DNA from: a virus
Length of the DNA: 25,357 bases
Reading direction: 5' to 3' (one strand)
Virus record (IMG/VR): IMGVR_UViG_3300030118_000930
Span: 1-25,357 of that record
The stretch's first letter is position 1, and every line of letters starts with the position of its first letter. The translations under genes and the position numbers were made by a program. The notes under the pieces are model-generated. The model searched no databases, had not been told where the DNA came from, and saw only the letters and a list, made by a program, of their open reading frames with translations. Shown in pieces: positions 1,976 through 19,499 of the stretch.

Positions 1976-2898
1976 TATAAACCATATCTAAAACCAGCTT
2001 TCGCACCAGTTTTTGCAGTATCTTTGTATTTTTGCCTTCTGTTAAAGTTTTGCATTGATCTTCCACCTGATGTGTCACCTAAATTATTTGAATATGATTT
2101 TATTGTTGATGCACCAAAGTCAGATTGAAATGGTTGAGATGTAACATTAAGACCAGCATAGACATTACCCATATCATCAGCTTTATCACCTCTTGTAGTG
2201 ACATCAGCCATAGCTTGAGCTTCTTCTTCTGTTCTACCTAAAGTATTTTGTGCAAAATCCATCATGTTGTCTTTGGCTAATTGGTTTTCAAATGCCTGGT
2301 TAGCTTGTACTAAGTTTAAATTGCCACCTTTTGCCCAACTATAACCACCATCATCTCTTTTATTTATAACTCCAGCATCAGCTAATCTTTTAGCATCTAA
2401 ATAAACACCTAACTGACCAAAGGGTGTAAATCTTTTATATAAACCACTTAATCCATCACCATATAAATCTAGTTTTTTGTTAGGATCATTAGGATCAAAG
2501 TAAGATTGAACATCATCGGCTGTACTACCACCTAGACCTAAGTTCATAAAGGCATTTTGTTCAGGACTATAAACACTTCCGACACCCTCATAAGGTGAAG
2601 GTGTTGTTTCATTATCACTATCACCATTCAATTCTTCTGGTGCTACTTCAGCTATAACACAGGCCTGAAGCACAGGATCGTAAACTCTGCCCTCTCCAGG
2701 ATAAAGTTCTTCACAATTAGGAACTGTTGGATCAGGTGAGGGTTGGGCTGCTGGTGGCACAAAAGGAGTACTATCAACTAAATAGGGGTTTGTTGATGGT
2801 GTTGTGTAAGGAGGAAGGCCACCAGACATATTGTTGAGGTAATTGTTTATAATTCCTTGAGCTTGAGTTGATTGAAAAAATGGTGATTCAAATGCCAT
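1975..2898 (-). CDS. Hypothetical virion-module protein, 307 aa
   Basis: No family is recognised. The first 110 residues are rich in Pro, Ser, Thr and Asn and look disordered. They hold a Cys pair in the pattern CEELYPGEGRVYDP followed by LQACV, which resembles short Cys-bounded repeats seen in other phage structural proteins. The rest is Gly, Asn, Asp and Gln rich, with a helical part at about residues 190-235 and a basic Arg-Lys end. It begins at the portal stop (one-base overlap) and ends at the next start, so it is part of one tightly packed transcript. A minor head or internal protein is plausible by position only. Confidence 0.65.
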   Translation of the reverse strand: MAFESPFFQSTQAQGIINNYLNNMSGGLPPYTTPSTNPYLVDSTPFVPPAAQPSPDPTVPNCEELYPGEGRVYDPVLQACVIAEVAPEELNGDSDNETTPSPYEGVGSVYSPEQNAFMNLGLGGSTADDVQSYFDPNDPNKKLDLYGDGLSGLYKRFTPFGQLGVYLDAKRLADAGVINKRDDGGYSWAKGGNLNLVQANQAFENQLAKDNMMDFAQNTLGRTEEEAQAMADVTTRGDKADDMGNVYAGLNVTSQPFQSDFGASTIKSYSNNLGDTSGGRSMQNFNRRQKYKDTAKTGAKAGFRYGL

Positions 2899-4916
2899 TA
2901 GTTAATTCCTTGTTCTATAATTTTTGTTGCTAGTTTTTCTTTTTCTAATTGTCTTGCATCAGTCTCTTTTACAACTTGTGTTGCTAGTTTCTGTTGATCG
3001 AGATTTAACTTTTCTAATTTATATTGTTCATCAGACTGCTGCTTTCTAGCTTTCAGTTGTAGGTCTGCTTGATCTTTTGCTTGGAGTCTTTGAAGTTCTT
3101 GTTGTGCTAATTGTACTGTTGGATCTTGTTGTGGTTGTTTTGGTGGAGGAGGAGGCATTGTTGCTGGATTGTTAAAGAACTGACTTGCGTCTTTGTAACC
3201 AGCATTCTCTAAATACTTCTCTAAGGTATTATAAATCTTTTGAGGATCGACAATACCCATACCACCAGCACCGATTAGTTTTTCTTGGACTGCCAAAACA
3301 CGACTTAAAACTTCGAGTCTTTGATCTTGTGATCCTGTACCAAGTCCAACTTGTACTGTTGCGTTATATCTATCCACCCACTCTCTAGGGTTCATAGGTA
3401 CAAACTGATTTCTCAGTTTAATAATTCTTTCTTGATCCTGGTACTTACACACTAAGGTTAAGATACCTTGAAACATTCTTTTAATACCTTCACTAAAGTT
3501 ACGAGCATACAGCTCTATTCTTTGAGTAGAAGCATTCATCATCACATTCGCACTTGTAGCTGTAGTGTGTGATTTATTTATTTGATCGGCATCTAATCCC
3601 ATTTGGACTTTAGAAACACCTGATCTTCCTTCTCTTATTTGATCGACTTTCTCTATCATCGCCAATCCCTCTTGCATAAAGTTAGGGGAAGCTAGGGGTG
3701 TGACAGCATTGGGTGATTTCACTCTCACAATTCCCCCAGCTCTTGATGTAAGGAGATCATCAATGTTTGCTTGTCCATCTACTACAACTGTTCTTGCGTT
3801 GTTTTGTAGATAAGCATTATTAAGAGTTTGCCTGAGAAGGGTAGTCTTAATTTCTTGAACATCGCCAATTAAATCATAAATGGATAATCCATAGAACCGA
3901 TGAGGCATAGGGATAGCAGTAAGAGTAGCAAAAGGTATTTGTTCAATGGGTTCATTTTCTAATATGTGGTATGCGTTAGGCCCAGAACCTCCTACTACGA
4001 TGTGTCTAAGTTCAGCTATTCCATCATTGTCGTAATCGCACTTCATATAAGCATCGACTACTGATACTCTCGTCAATAAAGGATCGATGTTTTGGAACTC
4101 TTGAGGCATAGTCTCATCATCAAAAGACCTTCTAGTTACTGCCTCTGTGTTATAAACTTCTTCATCAGCTACAGGTAATTCATTAACAATCTTTTTGTCA
4201 AAACCTTCACTAATTAATTCTGATCTTGTTTTAAAAACTCTTTGTGCAATAAAATTACAATCATCTAAGCTAGTAGCAGTCTTACTAATAAGCATACTCT
4301 CTGGTGGAACATTCTCTACAACTACACGACCATAATTTTTAACTCTTTTAACAGTAACATTGTAGGTAGCTTCCATCATATCGATACTATCAATATCTAG
4401 TTCTGTATTAGTATCTTCTACTTCTACAACTTCTACTTCAGGATCAGCTAATAATGCCTGGTACTCAGCAGTAGATAAATTTTCATAAGACTCTTGTTTT
4501 TGTTCTTTGTCTTTTTTCCAATAGTATTTAACAAAACCATTTTTAGAGATCAGAGCATCTTTAAACATAGTATGTAGAATAGAATAACCATTGTTATCCT
4601 TCATAAAGATATGGTTGATGTAATCTGATGCTTGATCTGCGTAAGCAACATCTTCTGGGCCTTGTGGCTCAAATCGAACTATGCTTTCACCTTGAGTAAA
4701 GATACGCATCATAGAAGGCAAGATACTTTCTACTACTTCTAAAACATCTTGTGATCTTACTTGGGATTGTCCTTCGACTTCGTTGCCTAATGGCTCACCT
4801 AAATAAAACTTTAAAGCATTCTTTCTTTGTTGTGTTAGCTCTCCACCATAAAACCCTAATGAGTTTGTGATCTCTTGCGATATTAATGCTTTTAATTTTT
4901 CTTTTGTAAATTTCAT
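2898..4916 (-). CDS. Portal protein
   Basis: This 672-aa protein is the likely dodecameric portal through which DNA enters and leaves the head. The N-terminal region has a pattern common to podovirus-type portals: RSQDVLEVVESILPSMMRIF at about residues 53-73, a region beginning FEPQGPEDVAYADQASDYIN, and FVKYYWKK. The middle carries a conserved-looking IPFATLTAIPMPHRFYGLSI segment and then repeated turns with Asn-Asn and Asn-Ala. The last 80 residues are Gln and Lys rich coiled coil, with a Pro run before it. Length fits the 600-750 aa class. The start overlaps the terminase stop by 4 bp, which supports coupled translation. An exact subfamily was not assigned. Confidence 0.9.
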   Translation of the reverse strand: MKFTKEKLKALISQEITNSLGFYGGELTQQRKNALKFYLGEPLGNEVEGQSQVRSQDVLEVVESILPSMMRIFTQGESIVRFEPQGPEDVAYADQASDYINHIFMKDNNGYSILHTMFKDALISKNGFVKYYWKKDKEQKQESYENLSTAEYQALLADPEVEVVEVEDTNTELDIDSIDMMEATYNVTVKRVKNYGRVVVENVPPESMLISKTATSLDDCNFIAQRVFKTRSELISEGFDKKIVNELPVADEEVYNTEAVTRRSFDDETMPQEFQNIDPLLTRVSVVDAYMKCDYDNDGIAELRHIVVGGSGPNAYHILENEPIEQIPFATLTAIPMPHRFYGLSIYDLIGDVQEIKTTLLRQTLNNAYLQNNARTVVVDGQANIDDLLTSRAGGIVRVKSPNAVTPLASPNFMQEGLAMIEKVDQIREGRSGVSKVQMGLDADQINKSHTTATSANVMMNASTQRIELYARNFSEGIKRMFQGILTLVCKYQDQERIIKLRNQFVPMNPREWVDRYNATVQVGLGTGSQDQRLEVLSRVLAVQEKLIGAGGMGIVDPQKIYNTLEKYLENAGYKDASQFFNNPATMPPPPPKQPQQDPTVQLAQQELQRLQAKDQADLQLKARKQQSDEQYKLEKLNLDQQKLATQVVKETDARQLEKEKLATKIIEQGIN

Positions 4917-6163
4917 ACTATTCCTAATCTGGGATATTTAATTTCTGACGACCAGTTCTTTGTTTCTTGTAATCCTGTACAGACATATCTAAAGGCATCA
5001 GCACTATGTGATGTCCAATCGTGTTGTGGTCTGTTTTTTGTTTCACCTTTATCGGTGACTGCCCATCGATATTGTCTCAAGGCATCTAATCCATCTTTTG
5101 TTTTTTCATAGTCAAACCAACATCTACCAAGTGTCATTCTGGTTGCGTTAATACCATCTTCAATAGACATCTTCGGTACAATGCTTGTCACTAATCCTAG
5201 TGATTGAGCTATTTCTAATCTTGATTTACCAGTTCCAATCTCTCGTACATTAGCATCATGGGGTAGGTAGTGGGTATCATAGACATAACCTCGATCATCC
5301 AGGACTGATGCGTAATACTCTAGCGACTCACCACTATCTTCAAAGTAATCTATAAGGTGGATTGCTGAACCTTTTTGCTGCACAAACCATATTGCAGTCT
5401 TATCTCGCATACCTAGATCCCAGTAAGTATCTACTTTAATAGTAGAGTCATAAGGAACTTTCGTAATACGACCTTCGGTGTCTGCCTTAGCTAATGATTG
5501 TGAATAGATAGCTCCTATAGCAGAGCTTTCAAAACTACATTCATATTCTGCCTCGTATATTTCAGGAGGCATCATTGATTTAGCTGCTGCTAGTTCTTCT
5601 TCATCTACAATCTTTGTTTCACTAGCTTTAAAACTTTTTGCGTACCAATTCTCATCCTGAAGTCCATGATTATAGAGTTCAAAGAACGAATTATGTCCTT
5701 GTGGAGTTCCAATAGCCACCATAAACCCTTTACGATCAGATAATGCTGGTCTAATAACCTCAGTCCACATTTTGGGAGGCATTTGTGCTACCTCATCAAG
5801 AACCACACCATCCATATACAATCCTTTAAGGGTTTGTGGTCTCTCACAACCGAGTAATTGTATTCTTCCACCATTAGGAAGATCAGCTCGTAGTTCTGTT
5901 TCGTGATATTCCATCTTCGGGAGAACTGATGTGTAATATTTTAAGTAATCCCAGGCTATTCTCTTAGCCATGCTATAAGTCGGTGCTATATAATAATACC
6001 GAGGTCTCGGCAACTTACATTGTAGGCACTTCTTAATCAGCTCATTAACTGTGAGGACTGTCTTGCCAAATCTTCTATGACAGACCAGGACTGAGAACCT
6101 GGCTAAATTCTTATGTATTTCTTTTTGTAGTGGTCTTGGTTTGTAGGGAATGGTTATTTTCAT
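4913..6163 (-). CDS. Terminase large subunit (packaging ATPase-nuclease)
   Basis: This 416-aa motor protein pumps DNA into the prohead and cuts it. Visible motifs are the Walker A variant CHRRFGKT at residues 28-35, Walker B GVVLDE at 119-124, the coupling motif AIGTP at 150-154, and a C-terminal RNase H-like nuclease. The nuclease acidic residues are probably Asp249 (YWDLG), Asp303 (LPHDA) and Asp389 (HSADAFRY). The length is slightly short for the family but both domains are present. It overlaps the methyltransferase gene upstream and the portal gene downstream by 4 bp each. The small subunit is not adjacent; it lies about 2.5 kb upstream in the same orientation. Confidence 0.95.
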   Translation of the reverse strand: MKITIPYKPRPLQKEIHKNLARFSVLVCHRRFGKTVLTVNELIKKCLQCKLPRPRYYYIAPTYSMAKRIAWDYLKYYTSVLPKMEYHETELRADLPNGGRIQLLGCERPQTLKGLYMDGVVLDEVAQMPPKMWTEVIRPALSDRKGFMVAIGTPQGHNSFFELYNHGLQDENWYAKSFKASETKIVDEEELAAAKSMMPPEIYEAEYECSFESSAIGAIYSQSLAKADTEGRITKVPYDSTIKVDTYWDLGMRDKTAIWFVQQKGSAIHLIDYFEDSGESLEYYASVLDDRGYVYDTHYLPHDANVREIGTGKSRLEIAQSLGLVTSIVPKMSIEDGINATRMTLGRCWFDYEKTKDGLDALRQYRWAVTDKGETKNRPQHDWTSHSADAFRYVCTGLQETKNWSSEIKYPRLGIV

Positions 6164-7407
6164 TGATAACTTTCTACAATCGCTTGACCAATGTAATAGG
6201 GTATGTGAGGTACTACTGCGTTTCCGAGGGTTTTAAGTCTGTCCACCCTTTTGGGAATCCCATGAGCCACTCTACCCACTCTGGGTTCAGACTCCCACCA
6301 TTTTCCACCCAATCCTTTTTGTCGTTCTTCGCTATTGTTTGTGGAAGTGAGTTTCTGTGCGAATTGACTACTGCTTTCCCGCTGTCTTTGTAGTCTCTCC
6401 TCGTTGGTGTCGGCCACATTTGTCTCTCCACCACTTTTTCTATCAAAGAACCTTGTTTTCTCTCTCGACTGTTCATCAATCTTTGAGTTGCTTCTACTGT
6501 TTGAGAAGCTGTTGATGGACTTGTTGCTGGAGTTGGCCACATCAATCTTGGATGTGCTACTTGATCGTTCAAACTGATTGGCATTTTCTTTTCCAATTTC
6601 ATCTTCATTCTCTTTACTGAATTGGCCCCTCTGCCACAATGTGCGTCTGGAGTTCTCCACATTCTCACTTTGTCTGCTAGGTTCAGAGAATGACTGTTCT
6701 TGCCATCCTTCGTTAATCTTCTCCCAGTTGGAGTTAGTTTCATGTTGGGATGTTCTATCTCTTGTGTCGTTGGAGTCGGCCACATCTTCGGAGTCCAATC
6801 TTTCATTCGTGGAGGGGTGAGAGATCCCATTTGCATTCCCTCTGCCTCTTCCTTCGTAATAACTCCATGATCTACTTTTCTTCGATAAGCTGTTATCGAT
6901 CCCTCGCATGGCATTAGCGATGCTACCGGAGTAGGCCACAGTCCAGACTCGTTCTCTTTTGTGGTTGGCACCGATGCTAGCAGCTGAAATACTAAATGTC
7001 CTCGAGGAGTAACCTTCACTCGCCAAGTCCTCAAGTACCGAGTCGAGACCGAGTTTAATATGTCCACTAACATTCTCTCCAATAACCCATGTTGGTCGGA
7101 GTTCTTGGATAAGTCTAAAATACTCTGGCCAGAGGTGTCTCGGATCTTGCTCAGCTTTTTGTTTTCCAGCGACTGAGAAGGGCTGACAGGGGTATCCTCC
7201 TGTAATAATGTCGATTGTTCCAATATCTGTTCCTTTTAATTTGCGAATGTCATCAAAAATAGGAACATCAGGCCAATGTTTCTTTAAAACCTTTTGACAA
7301 TAGGGTTCAATCTCACAGAATGCAGCAGTCTCAAAGTGTCCTGTAGCTTCTAATCCTAAACTAAAACCCCCTATACCTGAAAACAGGTCTAGTATTTTTA
7401 ATTTCAC
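6160..7407 (-). CDS. C5 cytosine DNA methyltransferase (Dcm-like)
   Basis: This enzyme transfers a methyl group from S-adenosylmethionine to C5 of cytosine, probably to protect phage DNA from host restriction. Motifs in order are I DLFSGIGG (residues 7-14), IV with the catalytic Cys74 in GGYPCQPFS, VI ENV (111-113), VIII GANHKRERVW (147-156), and IX-X near the end with RVDRLKTLGNAVVP. Between about residues 160 and 365, where the target-recognition part should be, the frame is low complexity (Ser, Asn, Arg, Glu) with repeated VAD or VAN boxes. A second long frame overlaps exactly this part (see the next entry). The start is GTG at 7407, overlapping the previous stop. No partner endonuclease is visible, so it is an orphan enzyme. 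Confidence 0.9.
   Translation of the reverse strand: MKLKILDLFSGIGGFSLGLEATGHFETAAFCEIEPYCQKVLKKHWPDVPIFDDIRKLKGTDIGTIDIITGGYPCQPFSVAGKQKAEQDPRHLWPEYFRLIQELRPTWVIGENVSGHIKLGLDSVLEDLASEGYSSRTFSISAASIGANHKRERVWTVAYSGSIANAMRGIDNSLSKKSRSWSYYEGRGRGNANGISHPSTNERLDSEDVADSNDTRDRTSQHETNSNWEKINEGWQEQSFSEPSRQSENVENSRRTLWQRGQFSKENEDEIGKENANQFERSSSTSKIDVANSSNKSINSFSNSRSNSKIDEQSREKTRFFDRKSGGETNVADTNEERLQRQRESSSQFAQKLTSTNNSEERQKGLGGKWWESEPRVGRVAHGIPKRVDRLKTLGNAVVPHIPYYIGQAIVESYQ
6213..7223 (-). CDS. Overlapping gene inside the methyltransferase, WPTP-repeat protein
   Basis: A 336-codon open frame lies wholly inside the methyltransferase gene, on the same strand but in another frame. It starts with TTG at 7223, preceded by AAAAGGAACAGATA, a good ribosome site. 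The product carries WPTP-type boxes at residues 96, 148, 189 (WRTP), 229 and 270. It ends with GGSLNPEWVEWLMGFPKGWT. From memory, phage proteins with WPTP...RDYKDSG and NPEWVEWLMGFPxGWTD are frequent and often labelled methyltransferase, so this frame looks conserved and not random. Function is unknown; it might supply target recognition or act separately. The alternative is that it is only a mirror of a repetitive methyltransferase region. Confidence 0.6.
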   Translation of the reverse strand: MEQSTLLQEDTPVSPSQSLENKKLSKIRDTSGQSILDLSKNSDQHGLLERMLVDILNSVSTRYLRTWRVKVTPRGHLVFQLLASVPTTKENESGLWPTPVASLMPCEGSITAYRRKVDHGVITKEEAEGMQMGSLTPPRMKDWTPKMWPTPTTQEIEHPNMKLTPTGRRLTKDGKNSHSLNLADKVRMWRTPDAHCGRGANSVKRMKMKLEKKMPISLNDQVAHPRLMWPTPATSPSTASQTVEATQRLMNSRERKQGSLIEKVVERQMWPTPTRRDYKDSGKAVVNSHRNSLPQTIAKNDKKDWVENGGSLNPEWVEWLMGFPKGWTDLKPSETQ

Positions 7408-14708: not shown

Positions 14709-14899
14709 TAGAAGAACTATACACAATGAAGGAAATATACCCCATTTTTAAGGCAAAATCAGAAAGGTCTTTTAAAATGACCTTAGATAGTTTATCTTCA
14801 AAGCACCCAAAAGAGCAATGTTTTAATCGATACTTCGGAAGTAAACGAGTGTTTACTAAAGAAGATGTAGAAAGGATTAAAACATTATGCTTAAAATAA
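14705..14899 (+). CDS. xis: Excisionase-like winged-helix protein
   Basis: This small 64-aa protein has an AlpA/excisionase-like layout: MIEELYTMKEIYPIFKAKSE, then RVFTKEDVERIKTL near the end. The FTKEDVERI type of ending is typical of MerR/excisionase DNA-binding proteins that bend DNA for integrase. The start at 14705 is set by an AGGAG site eight bases before and by an ATGA overlap with the upstream gene; an earlier start at 14666 has no such site. It overlaps the integrase start by 13 bp, fitting a xis-int pair. The symbol is functional, not a sequence match. Confidence 0.6.
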   Translation: MIEELYTMKEIYPIFKAKSERSFKMTLDSLSSKHPKEQCFNRYFGSKRVFTKEDVERIKTLCLK

Positions 14900-16029
14900 C
14901 TAAAAGACCTAATAGTAAGTATCTACAAATAAGAGGTACTTATAAAACTCCCTTTAAAAATTACAAAATAGTTTACGAGTCCACAGGCACAATTAACAAA
15001 AAAAAAGCTGAGGAATACTTATGGTTATTGCAAAAACAGTTAGATGAAGGAACTTATAAAGACAACCAGATCAAAAGAAAAACTTATGATGTTAAGTTTG
15101 TAACTGAAAAACTTTTAAATAGCTTTGACCAATGTCCAAGTGATGCAAGGAAACCTTTTTTTGAAAAGAATGCTGATTGCATTGGTTCTACACTTTTGGA
15201 AGATATTACAAATCAGAAAAAAGAAGAATTAATCTATTTGAGATATCCTAAAGGTACAGAAACAGGAGATTTGATTAGAAGATATCAAGGTAGAAAATTT
15301 ACTTCAATACCACTTAATGAGAGAAAAATATTATCCTCAAAATATAACACGATAAATACTGTGGTTATCAGACCTTTAAGCAGATTAATTAGTTTTGCAG
15401 CAGAAAATAATTGGTGTAAGCCATATAAAATTAAACAGTTACCACAAATATCAATCAGAGATAAAGATAAGTATGTATGGACTAAAGATGAAATAATCAG
15501 GTGTATGGACTTCTCAGACTTTGAAATAAAGTTCTTATTAATATTTCTTTATAGAACTGGAGCTAGAATACAAGAAGCTCTTGATATGAATTTTGCTAGA
15601 TTAGATCCTAACAACCGACCTATGATTGACCTGGATAATAATGAATTAAATATATTTGAAAATAAAACTCAATCCTGGAGGAACATACCTATACAAAGAA
15701 ATGATAATGAACCAGAATTATCTTTGTGGCATTGGTTACAAAAGATTAATGATAGAGAAGGTTATTTATTTTCTTGGAGGTTTGTAGGCCATAAAAAAAA
15801 TACTAATAATGGTTTAATACCAAGATGGAGAGAGATGTTAAGTTTTGCTAATGTCGATCAAAATAAAAAAAGACATTCATTAAGACACACTTTCGCATCA
15901 GAACTCTCTAATAAGGGTGCATCTACTAATGACATTATGACAGTAGGTGGATGGAAGTCTGAGACTATGGTTTATAACTATGCGAAAGTAGATAAAGAGA
16001 GAAAACAAAATTTAATAAATAAATTATGA
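14887..16029 (+). CDS. int: Tyrosine-family integrase (site-specific recombinase)
   Basis: This 380-aa recombinase integrates and excises the phage genome. The N-terminal part (about 1-70) is an arm-binding region, residues about 70-190 form the core-binding region, and the catalytic domain follows. Catalytic residues read as Arg227 (RTGARIQEAL), His330 with Arg333 and His334 (HSLRHT), Trp356 in the GGW position often taken by His, and the nucleophile Tyr365 (VYNYAK). All needed residues are present, so it looks active. It lies after the excisionase-like gene, and the intergenic stretch behind it has direct repeats and tRNA-like sequence. Confidence 0.93.
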   Translation: MLKITKRPNSKYLQIRGTYKTPFKNYKIVYESTGTINKKKAEEYLWLLQKQLDEGTYKDNQIKRKTYDVKFVTEKLLNSFDQCPSDARKPFFEKNADCIGSTLLEDITNQKKEELIYLRYPKGTETGDLIRRYQGRKFTSIPLNERKILSSKYNTINTVVIRPLSRLISFAAENNWCKPYKIKQLPQISIRDKDKYVWTKDEIIRCMDFSDFEIKFLLIFLYRTGARIQEALDMNFARLDPNNRPMIDLDNNELNIFENKTQSWRNIPIQRNDNEPELSLWHWLQKINDREGYLFSWRFVGHKKNTNNGLIPRWREMLSFANVDQNKKRHSLRHTFASELSNKGASTNDIMTVGGWKSETMVYNYAKVDKERKQNLINKL

Positions 16030-17506: not shown

Positions 17507-19231
17507 TTATGCAAAATTTCTTAACAATCCTGATTGTATGTTTGAAGAATATAAATCTTTAAAGTTTTTTAATTGATTAATTCTATCAGATTCAGAATTA
17601 TATTTATAAATTCTGTCAATACCATTTTCTTTTAATATTTGTATTGTTTCATTTGAAGTATTATAAGGAACAATAGCACCTTTAAACTCATTTATACCAA
17701 CAGCTCTGTTTGGTTTTATTTCAAAATATTCTGTAGGAGCATTTGCTAATTTTTTGAAAAATTCTTTTGTCATTAATATAGTTTCTTCACTAGCATTAGG
17801 ATAAAATTCTTCAAATGAACTATCTATTGAGTATTTTTTATCACTAAATATACTAATAAAATTATCTCCATAAGTGTCCATCGATGCTCTCTCAGGATGT
17901 TCTTCTGCTAGTCTTGTTATAATTTTATCTAAATCACCATAAAGTTCTGTTCTATTATCATTAAATTCTTGTGTGTTTACTATTTTATCTCTTGATGATT
18001 TTACTTCTTCAATATTTTTAAATTTACCTCTCATTGTAGAAGCTAAATTTCCTAGTGAAGTTGATCCAAATCCTTCTTCTTGACCAGACTTTGTACTCAT
18101 AGCATTTAAAACATTATCTAAATTATGATCTTTATATTTCAACCTTCCCATAGGAGTTCTTCCAACTATAATCTTTTCTTGACCTTCAACACCAATATTT
18201 TTGGCTAAATTATTTTCCCATACTTTGTATTCATTATTTAATTCTGGTGTGAAAACTTCTTCTAATGCTCTTTTATATTCATATTTATCTTTATAATTTG
18301 TAAATTCTGGTAATAATCCTTTTTCTTTTAAAAATGTCATTTCAAGCATAGTCTTATCTAAATTAGTAATACCTTCTTCAATTATTTGATTATACAAATT
18401 TCCAGAATAAAATATGTGTTGGTTAGAGCCATCTTCAAATTTGTAATTACCTATTTCTTTAGCATCATATCTAATGTCATTCACATCAAAAGTGTCTGAA
18501 AAATATTTTATTATTTTATTCATTTCATCATCTGAATATAAAGTTCTGACTATTGGGTATCTTTGAGTATAAGCATCTCCTTTATAAACAGGGTTATCTC
18601 TTGATGGGTTCATCATTGAAGGATCGCCAATTAAAGTAATTTCTCCAAATTTCATTTCATCAATATTTTCTTTTGCTATTGCCAAACTAGGTTTTGGTAT
18701 GCCACCTAATTTATTGTAATTCTGTATAGCACTTTCACCTGTATTATGAATAACAAACATTCCTTCACCTTCAGGATATTCGTTTTTATTTTCTTGAGAT
18801 GTATATATATAATCTGAAAGTAATGAAGGTGGTAATTCTTTTGTTACATTACTAGAGTCTATAGTTTCTGCTTCTGGAGTTGATAACAATCCACTAGGTT
18901 TATAACCTTCAGTAGTTATTAAAGGTTCTATGTTATTATTAGTTGGTAATGTAATATTCTTACCTAACTCTCTATTAAATTCTGCTTGTCTTTCAATATC
19001 ATCAGCATCAGGAGCAAACACTTGGCCTGATGGAGTATCTTTTAAGTTTAATGTTGGCGATCCCAATAACAAATTTAAACCTGAGCTAAGTAAACCTTTG
19101 TTATTAATAAAATTATCAATAATACTTTGAGAAACTCCTGGTTGTGATAAATATTGTGTTGCAGCAGTTCCTAGTAATCCTGAACTAATAATAGCTGGAG
19201 CTATATAAGGTGCTGCTAATAATCCTGGCAT
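17507..19231 (-). CDS. Large polyvalent-type phage protein, 574 aa
   Basis: The first 50 residues are hydrophobic and small-residue rich (LLAAPYIAPAIISSGLLG). A domain follows at about residues 155-225 with VIHNTGE, LGGIPKPSLAIAKENI, FGEITLIGDPSM, and a Lys-Gly-Asp-Ala-Tyr...Arg-Tyr-Pro end. Near residues 500-525 comes YFEIKPNRAVGINEFKGAIV. From memory, both resemble segments that recur in the large multidomain polyvalent proteins of phages and mobile elements, which enter the host with the DNA. It is probably a virion-carried, injected protein. No catalytic residues were identified. It ends at the convergent junction. Confidence 0.6.
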   Translation of the reverse strand: MPGLLAAPYIAPAIISSGLLGTAATQYLSQPGVSQSIIDNFINNKGLLSSGLNLLLGSPTLNLKDTPSGQVFAPDADDIERQAEFNRELGKNITLPTNNNIEPLITTEGYKPSGLLSTPEAETIDSSNVTKELPPSLLSDYIYTSQENKNEYPEGEGMFVIHNTGESAIQNYNKLGGIPKPSLAIAKENIDEMKFGEITLIGDPSMMNPSRDNPVYKGDAYTQRYPIVRTLYSDDEMNKIIKYFSDTFDVNDIRYDAKEIGNYKFEDGSNQHIFYSGNLYNQIIEEGITNLDKTMLEMTFLKEKGLLPEFTNYKDKYEYKRALEEVFTPELNNEYKVWENNLAKNIGVEGQEKIIVGRTPMGRLKYKDHNLDNVLNAMSTKSGQEEGFGSTSLGNLASTMRGKFKNIEEVKSSRDKIVNTQEFNDNRTELYGDLDKIITRLAEEHPERASMDTYGDNFISIFSDKKYSIDSSFEEFYPNASEETILMTKEFFKKLANAPTEYFEIKPNRAVGINEFKGAIVPYNTSNETIQILKENGIDRIYKYNSESDRINQLKNFKDLYSSNIQSGLLRNFA

Positions 19232-19244
19232 ATAAATTTTCTTT

Positions 19245-19499
19245 CTATAAGGTTAATTCTTTAACTTCTAGTACACATTTGTTTAAAATTAATTGAAGTG
19301 TTCCTTCATTGCCATCTACATATTCACCATTCTCTAATGAGTAACTAGAATATAAAATAGTTTTATCTTTAGTCTTTTTATATAACCATCCTACAGAATA
19401 ACAGATTGGCATAGATTTCTTTTCATAAGACTTTGCCTCTACCCAGCCAGAGTCACATAGACCACTATCGATCCATTTAACTATGACTAATTTGTTCAT
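19245..19499 (-). CDS. Hypothetical protein, 84 aa
   Basis: This protein begins MNKLVIVKWIDSGLCDSGWV and reads as a beta-rich fold with SVGWLYKKTKDKTILYSSYS. Similar short proteins with a VKW.DS...W and SVGWL pattern occur in marine phages near the lysis genes; that is memory only. It shares its start base with the stop of the tiny basic protein gene. Function unknown. Confidence 0.55.
   Translation of the reverse strand: MNKLVIVKWIDSGLCDSGWVEAKSYEKKSMPICYSVGWLYKKTKDKTILYSSYSLENGEYVDGNEGTLQLILNKCVLEVKELTL

Follow-up and report, generated by a model that had tools for sequence, protein, structure and literature searches.

Introduction

Polyvalent proteins of phages and plasmids, as portrayed in the passages of Iyer et al. 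(2017; PMC5512222) used here, are mosaics encoded among late genes, with a repertoire that includes PBECR, ART-PolyVal, GNAT and methylase domains. The same passages predict that PBECR domains are RNases with an active site formed by a histidine and a C-terminal Ser/Thr, and place the histidine of BECR RNases in an N-terminal helix (PMC5512222).

A different enzyme group, the ADP-ribosyltransferases (ART), includes the DarT toxins, which are encoded in DarTG toxin-antitoxin operons next to a macrodomain or NADAR antitoxin. Phages also make such enzymes: Alt of phage T4 is packaged and injected, and AcrIF11 inactivates a CRISPR complex. Here we describe a protein of an ocean bacteriophage, P0001, that is probably a virion-delivered, single-cassette and leader-bearing variant of the polyvalent-type effectors.

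Results

The P0001 gene is the last gene of the late operon

The window analysed is a virus record of 25,357 bases. Its minus strand carries the late genes, with portal and large terminase at 2898-6163 and the tail-end and lysis genes at the right, and its plus strand carries the early genes, including a tyrosine integrase (14887-16029; PF00589, E 1.9e-18). The large terminase is closest to that of the HTVC010P group of Pelagibacter phages (∼50% identity). The record differs from this group in having an integrase and the P0001 gene, with its leader that is absent from the cultured phages searched. The presence of the integrase beside an HTVC010P-like terminase suggests a temperate or integrative relative. 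A C5 cytosine DNA methylase gene (6160-7407; PF00145, E 1e-45) adjoins the terminase and is overlapped on the same strand by a frame of 336 codons. Searches with defence-system profiles gave no match.

The P0001 gene (17507-19231, minus strand) is open from ATG to stop and encodes 574 residues, consisting of a leader, a PBECR5 cassette and a short C-terminal tail. Comparison of the domain with those of three relatives (L003, L010 and L117) gave dN/dS values of 0.12-0.28, and this purifying selection demonstrates that we are dealing with a maintained gene and not with a chance frame. A preliminary description of this DNA had already proposed the gene, without assigning a strand, and had rightly placed it next to the lysis cassette: the endolysin gene (phage lysozyme; 20269-20724, minus) is followed by small genes and then by P0001, which closes the minus-strand late operon and is convergent with the early operon. 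The small gene just upstream of P0001 (84 codons; 19245-19499, minus) marks a slot that is empty in most relatives. The hydrophobic start that had been suggested for the protein proved weak, since the highest mean hydropathy over 19 residues is 1.5 and the start is predicted to be disordered. No immunity or antitoxin domain, and no macrodomain or NADAR antitoxin of the DarTG kind, was recognised in the neighbouring genes scanned; P0001 differs from DarT in being encoded by a phage late gene instead of a toxin-antitoxin operon.

Two conserved blocks form the ends of a single PBECR5 domain

The Pfam family PBECR5 (PF18814; phage-Barnase-EndoU-ColicinE5/D-RelE like nuclease 5) matches residues 151-359 of P0001 with 56.6 bits (E 4.4e-15), the curated gathering cut-off being 25 bits, and residues 366-562 are matched (E 1.7e-23) by PHROG 22978, whose profile spans 3,513 positions. 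PF18814 also passes its cut-off in L005, in L010 and in proteins of phages Carin1, CRP-901 and Ab9. Based on PF18814, an AlphaFold2 model and VIA-align comparisons, we place the domain, with its predicted ADP-ribosyltransferase-like fold, at residues 151-562 (17546-18781, minus). Its relatives are encoded in at least 472 viral contigs and in 18 bacterial contigs.

Alignment of P0001 with the matching stretches of Acinetobacter phage Ab9, Cobetia phage Carin1, Roseobacter phage CRP-901 and Bacteroides phage BF1-TP2 revealed a variable insertion flanked by two conserved blocks, which correspond to the two segments singled out in the preliminary description. The first segment (HNTGE...GDPSM; residues 162-206; 18614-18748, minus) and the second (YFEIKPNRAV...FKGAIV; residues 502-521; 17669-17728, minus) are both conserved in a larger alignment of 42 sequences (A4). 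Invariant in A4 are H162, N163, G176, P181, S182, G196, L200, D219, T222 and P226, as well as R414, P499, F503, E504, K506, P507, R509, E515 and F516; K506 and R509 of the second segment stand out likewise in alignment A3. Both alignments also contain a conserved D-x-Y-T-x-R-x-P motif (residues 219-226) that includes R224 (18560-18562, minus). E504, which lies in a predicted strand, is a candidate catalytic glutamate. The insertion (residues 232-498; 17738-18538, minus) is mostly helical according to the alignment and the model, and its length varies among relatives.

The segments had previously been regarded as two polyvalent-type modules. The link to polyvalent families is supported by the profile matches given above and by the homologous domains in proteins of 2,839 and 2,854 residues (see below), so that the outcome named beforehand as refuting it, a lack of polyvalent matches, did not arise, but the division into two separate modules does not, since alignment and model place both segments at the two ends of one folded domain. 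P0001 shares the invariant blocks with the Ab9, Carin1 and CRP-901 proteins, although the Pfam match itself stops before the second block. A sequence search against solved structures retrieved no credible relative of P0001, and a HAD hydrolase hint at residues 486-542 (E 0.15) was below cut-off and was taken as chance.

The predicted fold resembles that of DarT-like ADP-ribosyltransferases

In the AlphaFold2 model of P0001, which was built on the 42-sequence alignment, residues 151-562 fold with a pLDDT of about 90, and residues 1-150 are disordered except for a helix at 76-91. When this model was compared with known structures using VIA-align, the top 11 rows were all chains of the ART superfamily, and these matches spanned both conserved blocks. 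The best was DarT (7omw; Z 8.0, rmsd 3.4, 127 residues aligned), the others including Mycobacterium DarT (Z 7.9), Tpt1 (7yw4; 7.3), DarT1 (7.0) and CteC (8ux2; 5.9). An independent model of L153, a homologue with 32% identity (pLDDT 90.5, pTM 0.82), likewise matched DarT best (Z 8.0 over 133 residues), followed by Tpt1 (6.6) and CteC (6.4); unrelated helical chains scored Z 5.8 or lower. A Z near 8 is a level at which chance arrangements occur, and Foldseek E-values exceeded 0.6 for both models.

H162 lies in predicted strand 1 (residues 158-164), and H16 in the L153 model lies in the strand formed by residues 12-18. A histidine in strand 1 is the arrangement of H-type ADP-ribosyltransferases. 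E504 lies in a late strand, and going by the predicted models these two invariant residues of P0001 may occupy ART-type positions, as in DarT; H162 is not in an N-terminal helix there, as it would be in a BECR RNase. BECR chains were absent from the best structural rows for both models, an absence that carries no weight against such a fold. Alt and AcrIF11, with which P0001 would share its chemistry if the fold prediction is right, were also not among the best rows for P0001.

P0001 differs from DarT in its large helical insertion and in having no detectable sequence similarity to it: comparison by hhalign with 12 DarT and 11 Tpt1 (PF01885) sequences gave probabilities below 1%, and the DarT profile PF14487 did not match P0001. 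The ART assignment is therefore a prediction at the level of the fold. Weighing the structural matches against the Foldseek values, the level of Z and the null profile comparison, we consider a DarT-like ADP-ribosyltransferase fold of the PBECR5 domain fairly probable and an RNase rather unlikely, and the nuclease label of the domain appears doubtful from the models. PBECR is not mentioned in a 2022 survey of viral NAD+/ADP-ribose systems that covers viral ADP-ribosyltransferases, and it is otherwise almost absent from the literature searched.

A leader is common to two pelagiphage-like lineages

The search with P0001 also retrieved three proteins (L011-L013) that share about 77% identity with P0001 over their N-terminal 150 residues and have C-termini unrelated to PBECR5. 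In L011 and L012 the C-terminal domain is ART-PolyVal, and that of L013 is ParB-like as judged by a DGHHR motif only. The leader of P0001 comprises residues 1-146 (18794-19231, minus), as delimited by these fusions, the model and a profile from a second lineage. Its core motif, DTPSG.V.AP...IE.....FN.EL.KN (residues 65-93; 18953-19039, minus; alignments A2 and A5), includes the sole well-predicted leader helix. The leader ends with a junction motif, SDYIYT (residues 139-144; 18800-18817, minus), near which DNA similarity stops and beyond which the cassettes differ; nearly all leader proteins have a comparable motif, [SE]D[YFLM]I.T, at this point.

A leader profile detected 46 viral loci, many of which belong to a second lineage whose terminase resembles that of pelagiphages HTVC023P and HTVC027P. 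In this lineage (fusions among L014-L107) the leader is followed by a GNAT, methyltransferase or unrecognised domain. A profile made from the second lineage only found P0001 at E 9e-18, the first unrelated sequence among 2,365 scoring 0.42, and therefore the leaders of the two lineages, which carry differing C-terminal domains, are homologous. In nearly every second-lineage contig that is long enough, the leader gene comes after the terminase genes and before portal. At the sensitivity used the leader was found neither in 50,697 phage records nor in GTDB genomes, and cultured phages had none, including HTVC023P relatives searched between terminase and portal. In the HTVC023P-like lineage (L014-L107), a tail of the approximate form K-R-G-G-x-I-S-L/I-P is also common among the leader proteins, whatever the cassette. 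A probable role of the leader is to direct the protein to the inside of the virion or to the ejection path.

Cassettes have been exchanged between conserved ends

Pairwise DNA comparisons of relatives showed where similarity is kept and where it is lost. L005 and L077 are 97% identical over their first 510 and last 29 nt, and for L011 and L013 the values are 91% over 432 nt and 84% over the last 38 nt, the middles being unrelated in both pairs; conversely, L003 and L005 have cassettes that are 96.5% identical and leaders that have diverged. It follows that the enzyme is exchanged between conserved ends, and that cassettes have been swapped recently between near-identical ends among these relatives. 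In three cases from the lineage of P0001 itself, the slot behind the last late gene is occupied by a PBECR5, ART or ParB-like version, and about 18 other relatives, near-identical ones among them, have nothing there.

Two further genes were observed in this region of relatives. One, a small gene with weak similarity to SprT/phage metallopeptidases, immediately precedes the effector gene in two relatives (L003:7072-7440 and L005:73-435) and recalls the peptidase domains of polyvalent proteins. The other, of about 206-214 codons and with weak DUF6875 similarity, lies at the late-operon end of some effector-less relatives (L045:6888-7508 and L049:3810-4454).

The C-terminal tail of P0001 comprises residues 563-574 (17510-17545, minus), and conserved tail DNA flanks the exchanged cassettes in relatives. 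It contains the tripeptide GLL (residues 568-570; 17522-17530), which is the most widespread tripeptide in both flanks of 29 PBECR5 representatives (N flank, 25 seen and 3.8 expected; C flank, 12 and 1.95). Of 27 solo PBECR5 proteins, 20 have a GLL no more than 40 residues from an end, compared with 5 of 95 other ORFs; because the sequences are related, the p-value exaggerates this contrast. The remaining proteins with a GLL near an end include long ones encoded on the same contigs, and GLL lies near the ends in L166:30-2021 and L163:2243-3463 too. The tripeptide is possibly a short packaging or docking motif. We regard the GLL pattern as a lead and not as a result.

PBECR5 genes of other phages lie near terminase, portal, lysozyme or internal virion protein genes

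The homologous domains of Ab9 and Carin1 are parts of proteins of 2,839 and 2,854 residues, respectively, whose genes directly follow those for internal virion proteins or lysozyme. Such giant proteins of the injected type carrying PBECR5 are found in T7-like phages. In many divergent contigs, solo PBECR5 proteins of about 530 residues are encoded either immediately ahead of the genes for small and large terminase or in the gap between terminase and portal; in L008-L010 the gene lies directly upstream of terminase. From gene contexts of this kind, packaging and injection of polyvalent proteins have been inferred in the cited passages (PMC5512222), and for the PBECR5 proteins the evidence that they provide is indirect.

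P0001, the last gene product of its late operon, and its relatives beside terminase and portal share with the polyvalent proteins described in those passages the domain repertoire, the late-gene context and the mosaic architectures (PMC5512222). The difference is that the strict class combines at least two disparate activities in one chain, and P0001 has one recognised enzymatic domain and a disordered leader; it is a single effector in which a fixed leader and tail surround an exchangeable cassette. The earlier assignment to the polyvalent type therefore stands for the domain and not for strict multi-domain membership. Leader-bearing relatives that are larger mosaics, such as L080 (GNAT and a further large region) and L018 (methyltransferase and a further region), come closer to the strict class. 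No leader of the P0001 type is described in the passages of PMC5512222 used here, and no virion proteomics for a PBECR5 phage was found in the literature searched.

Discussion

We give about an even chance to the view that P0001 is a virion-delivered, exchangeable enzyme for host takeover or counter-defence, built from a modular leader and a DarT-like ART cassette. According to this model, P0001 would be made late, together with the lysis and structural proteins, and then be packaged, its leader (residues 1-146) steering it into the virion interior or the ejection path. It would enter the next host with the phage DNA, and its exchangeable PBECR5 cassette (residues 151-562), with the predicted DarT-like fold, would transfer ADP-ribose from host NAD+ to a nucleic acid or protein of the host. 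This modification could help takeover or block a defence; a role in counter-defence or early takeover, as was proposed at the outset, is our best inference. The conserved ends, leader and tail, would serve delivery. Delivery is disfavoured by the location of the P0001 gene after the lysis genes and not in the head cluster.

The Pfam label offers another explanation, namely that P0001 is a metal-independent RNase of the BECR fold, delivered with the DNA, that cuts host mRNA or defence RNA. The match to a curated family above its cut-off, the RNase activity predicted for PBECR domains in the passages of the 2017 paper (PMC5512222) and the invariance of H162 are all consistent with it. However, the histidine lies in the first strand and not in an N-terminal helix in both models, and the best structural rows are all ADP-ribosyltransferases, although the absence of BECR chains from these rows carries no weight of its own; we therefore consider this explanation unlikely. 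Slightly less probable again is that P0001 remains unpackaged and acts in the producing cell as a late- or prophage-expressed cargo toxin, for instance in superinfection exclusion, host shut-off or lysis timing. The integrase of the phage and the location of the gene at the end of the lysis cassette, in an accessory slot that most relatives leave empty, would fit such a role, but in relatives the same leader or the same domain is encoded in the terminase-portal cluster or next to genes for internal virion proteins, and adjoining genes encode no recognised immunity or antitoxin domain.

That P0001 has no effector activity and serves in the structure or assembly of the particle, with residues conserved for folding, we regard as very improbable. 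A late gene, a largely disordered stretch at residues 1-150 and the nearby head genes in relatives would be expected of such a protein, but the gene is absent from most close relatives, unrelated enzyme-type domains replace the cassette, and the invariant residues include charged H, R, E and K.

Returning to the delivered ADP-ribosyltransferase, a broader proposal can be made, to which we assign somewhat less than an even chance: marine phages would possess a plug-in effector system, in which a fixed leader and tail carry one of many enzymes per virion, and the PBECR5 'nucleases' would be a hidden clade of DarT-like ADP-ribosyltransferases. If this is true, hundreds of phage proteins now labelled as nucleases would be NAD+-using enzymes, and the activities to be assayed for in host takeover and counter-defence would change. 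The common leader is a concrete, testable candidate delivery tag for phages related to the abundant pelagiphages, and it is evident from the cassette swaps that recombination between conserved ends allows a phage to switch its effector.
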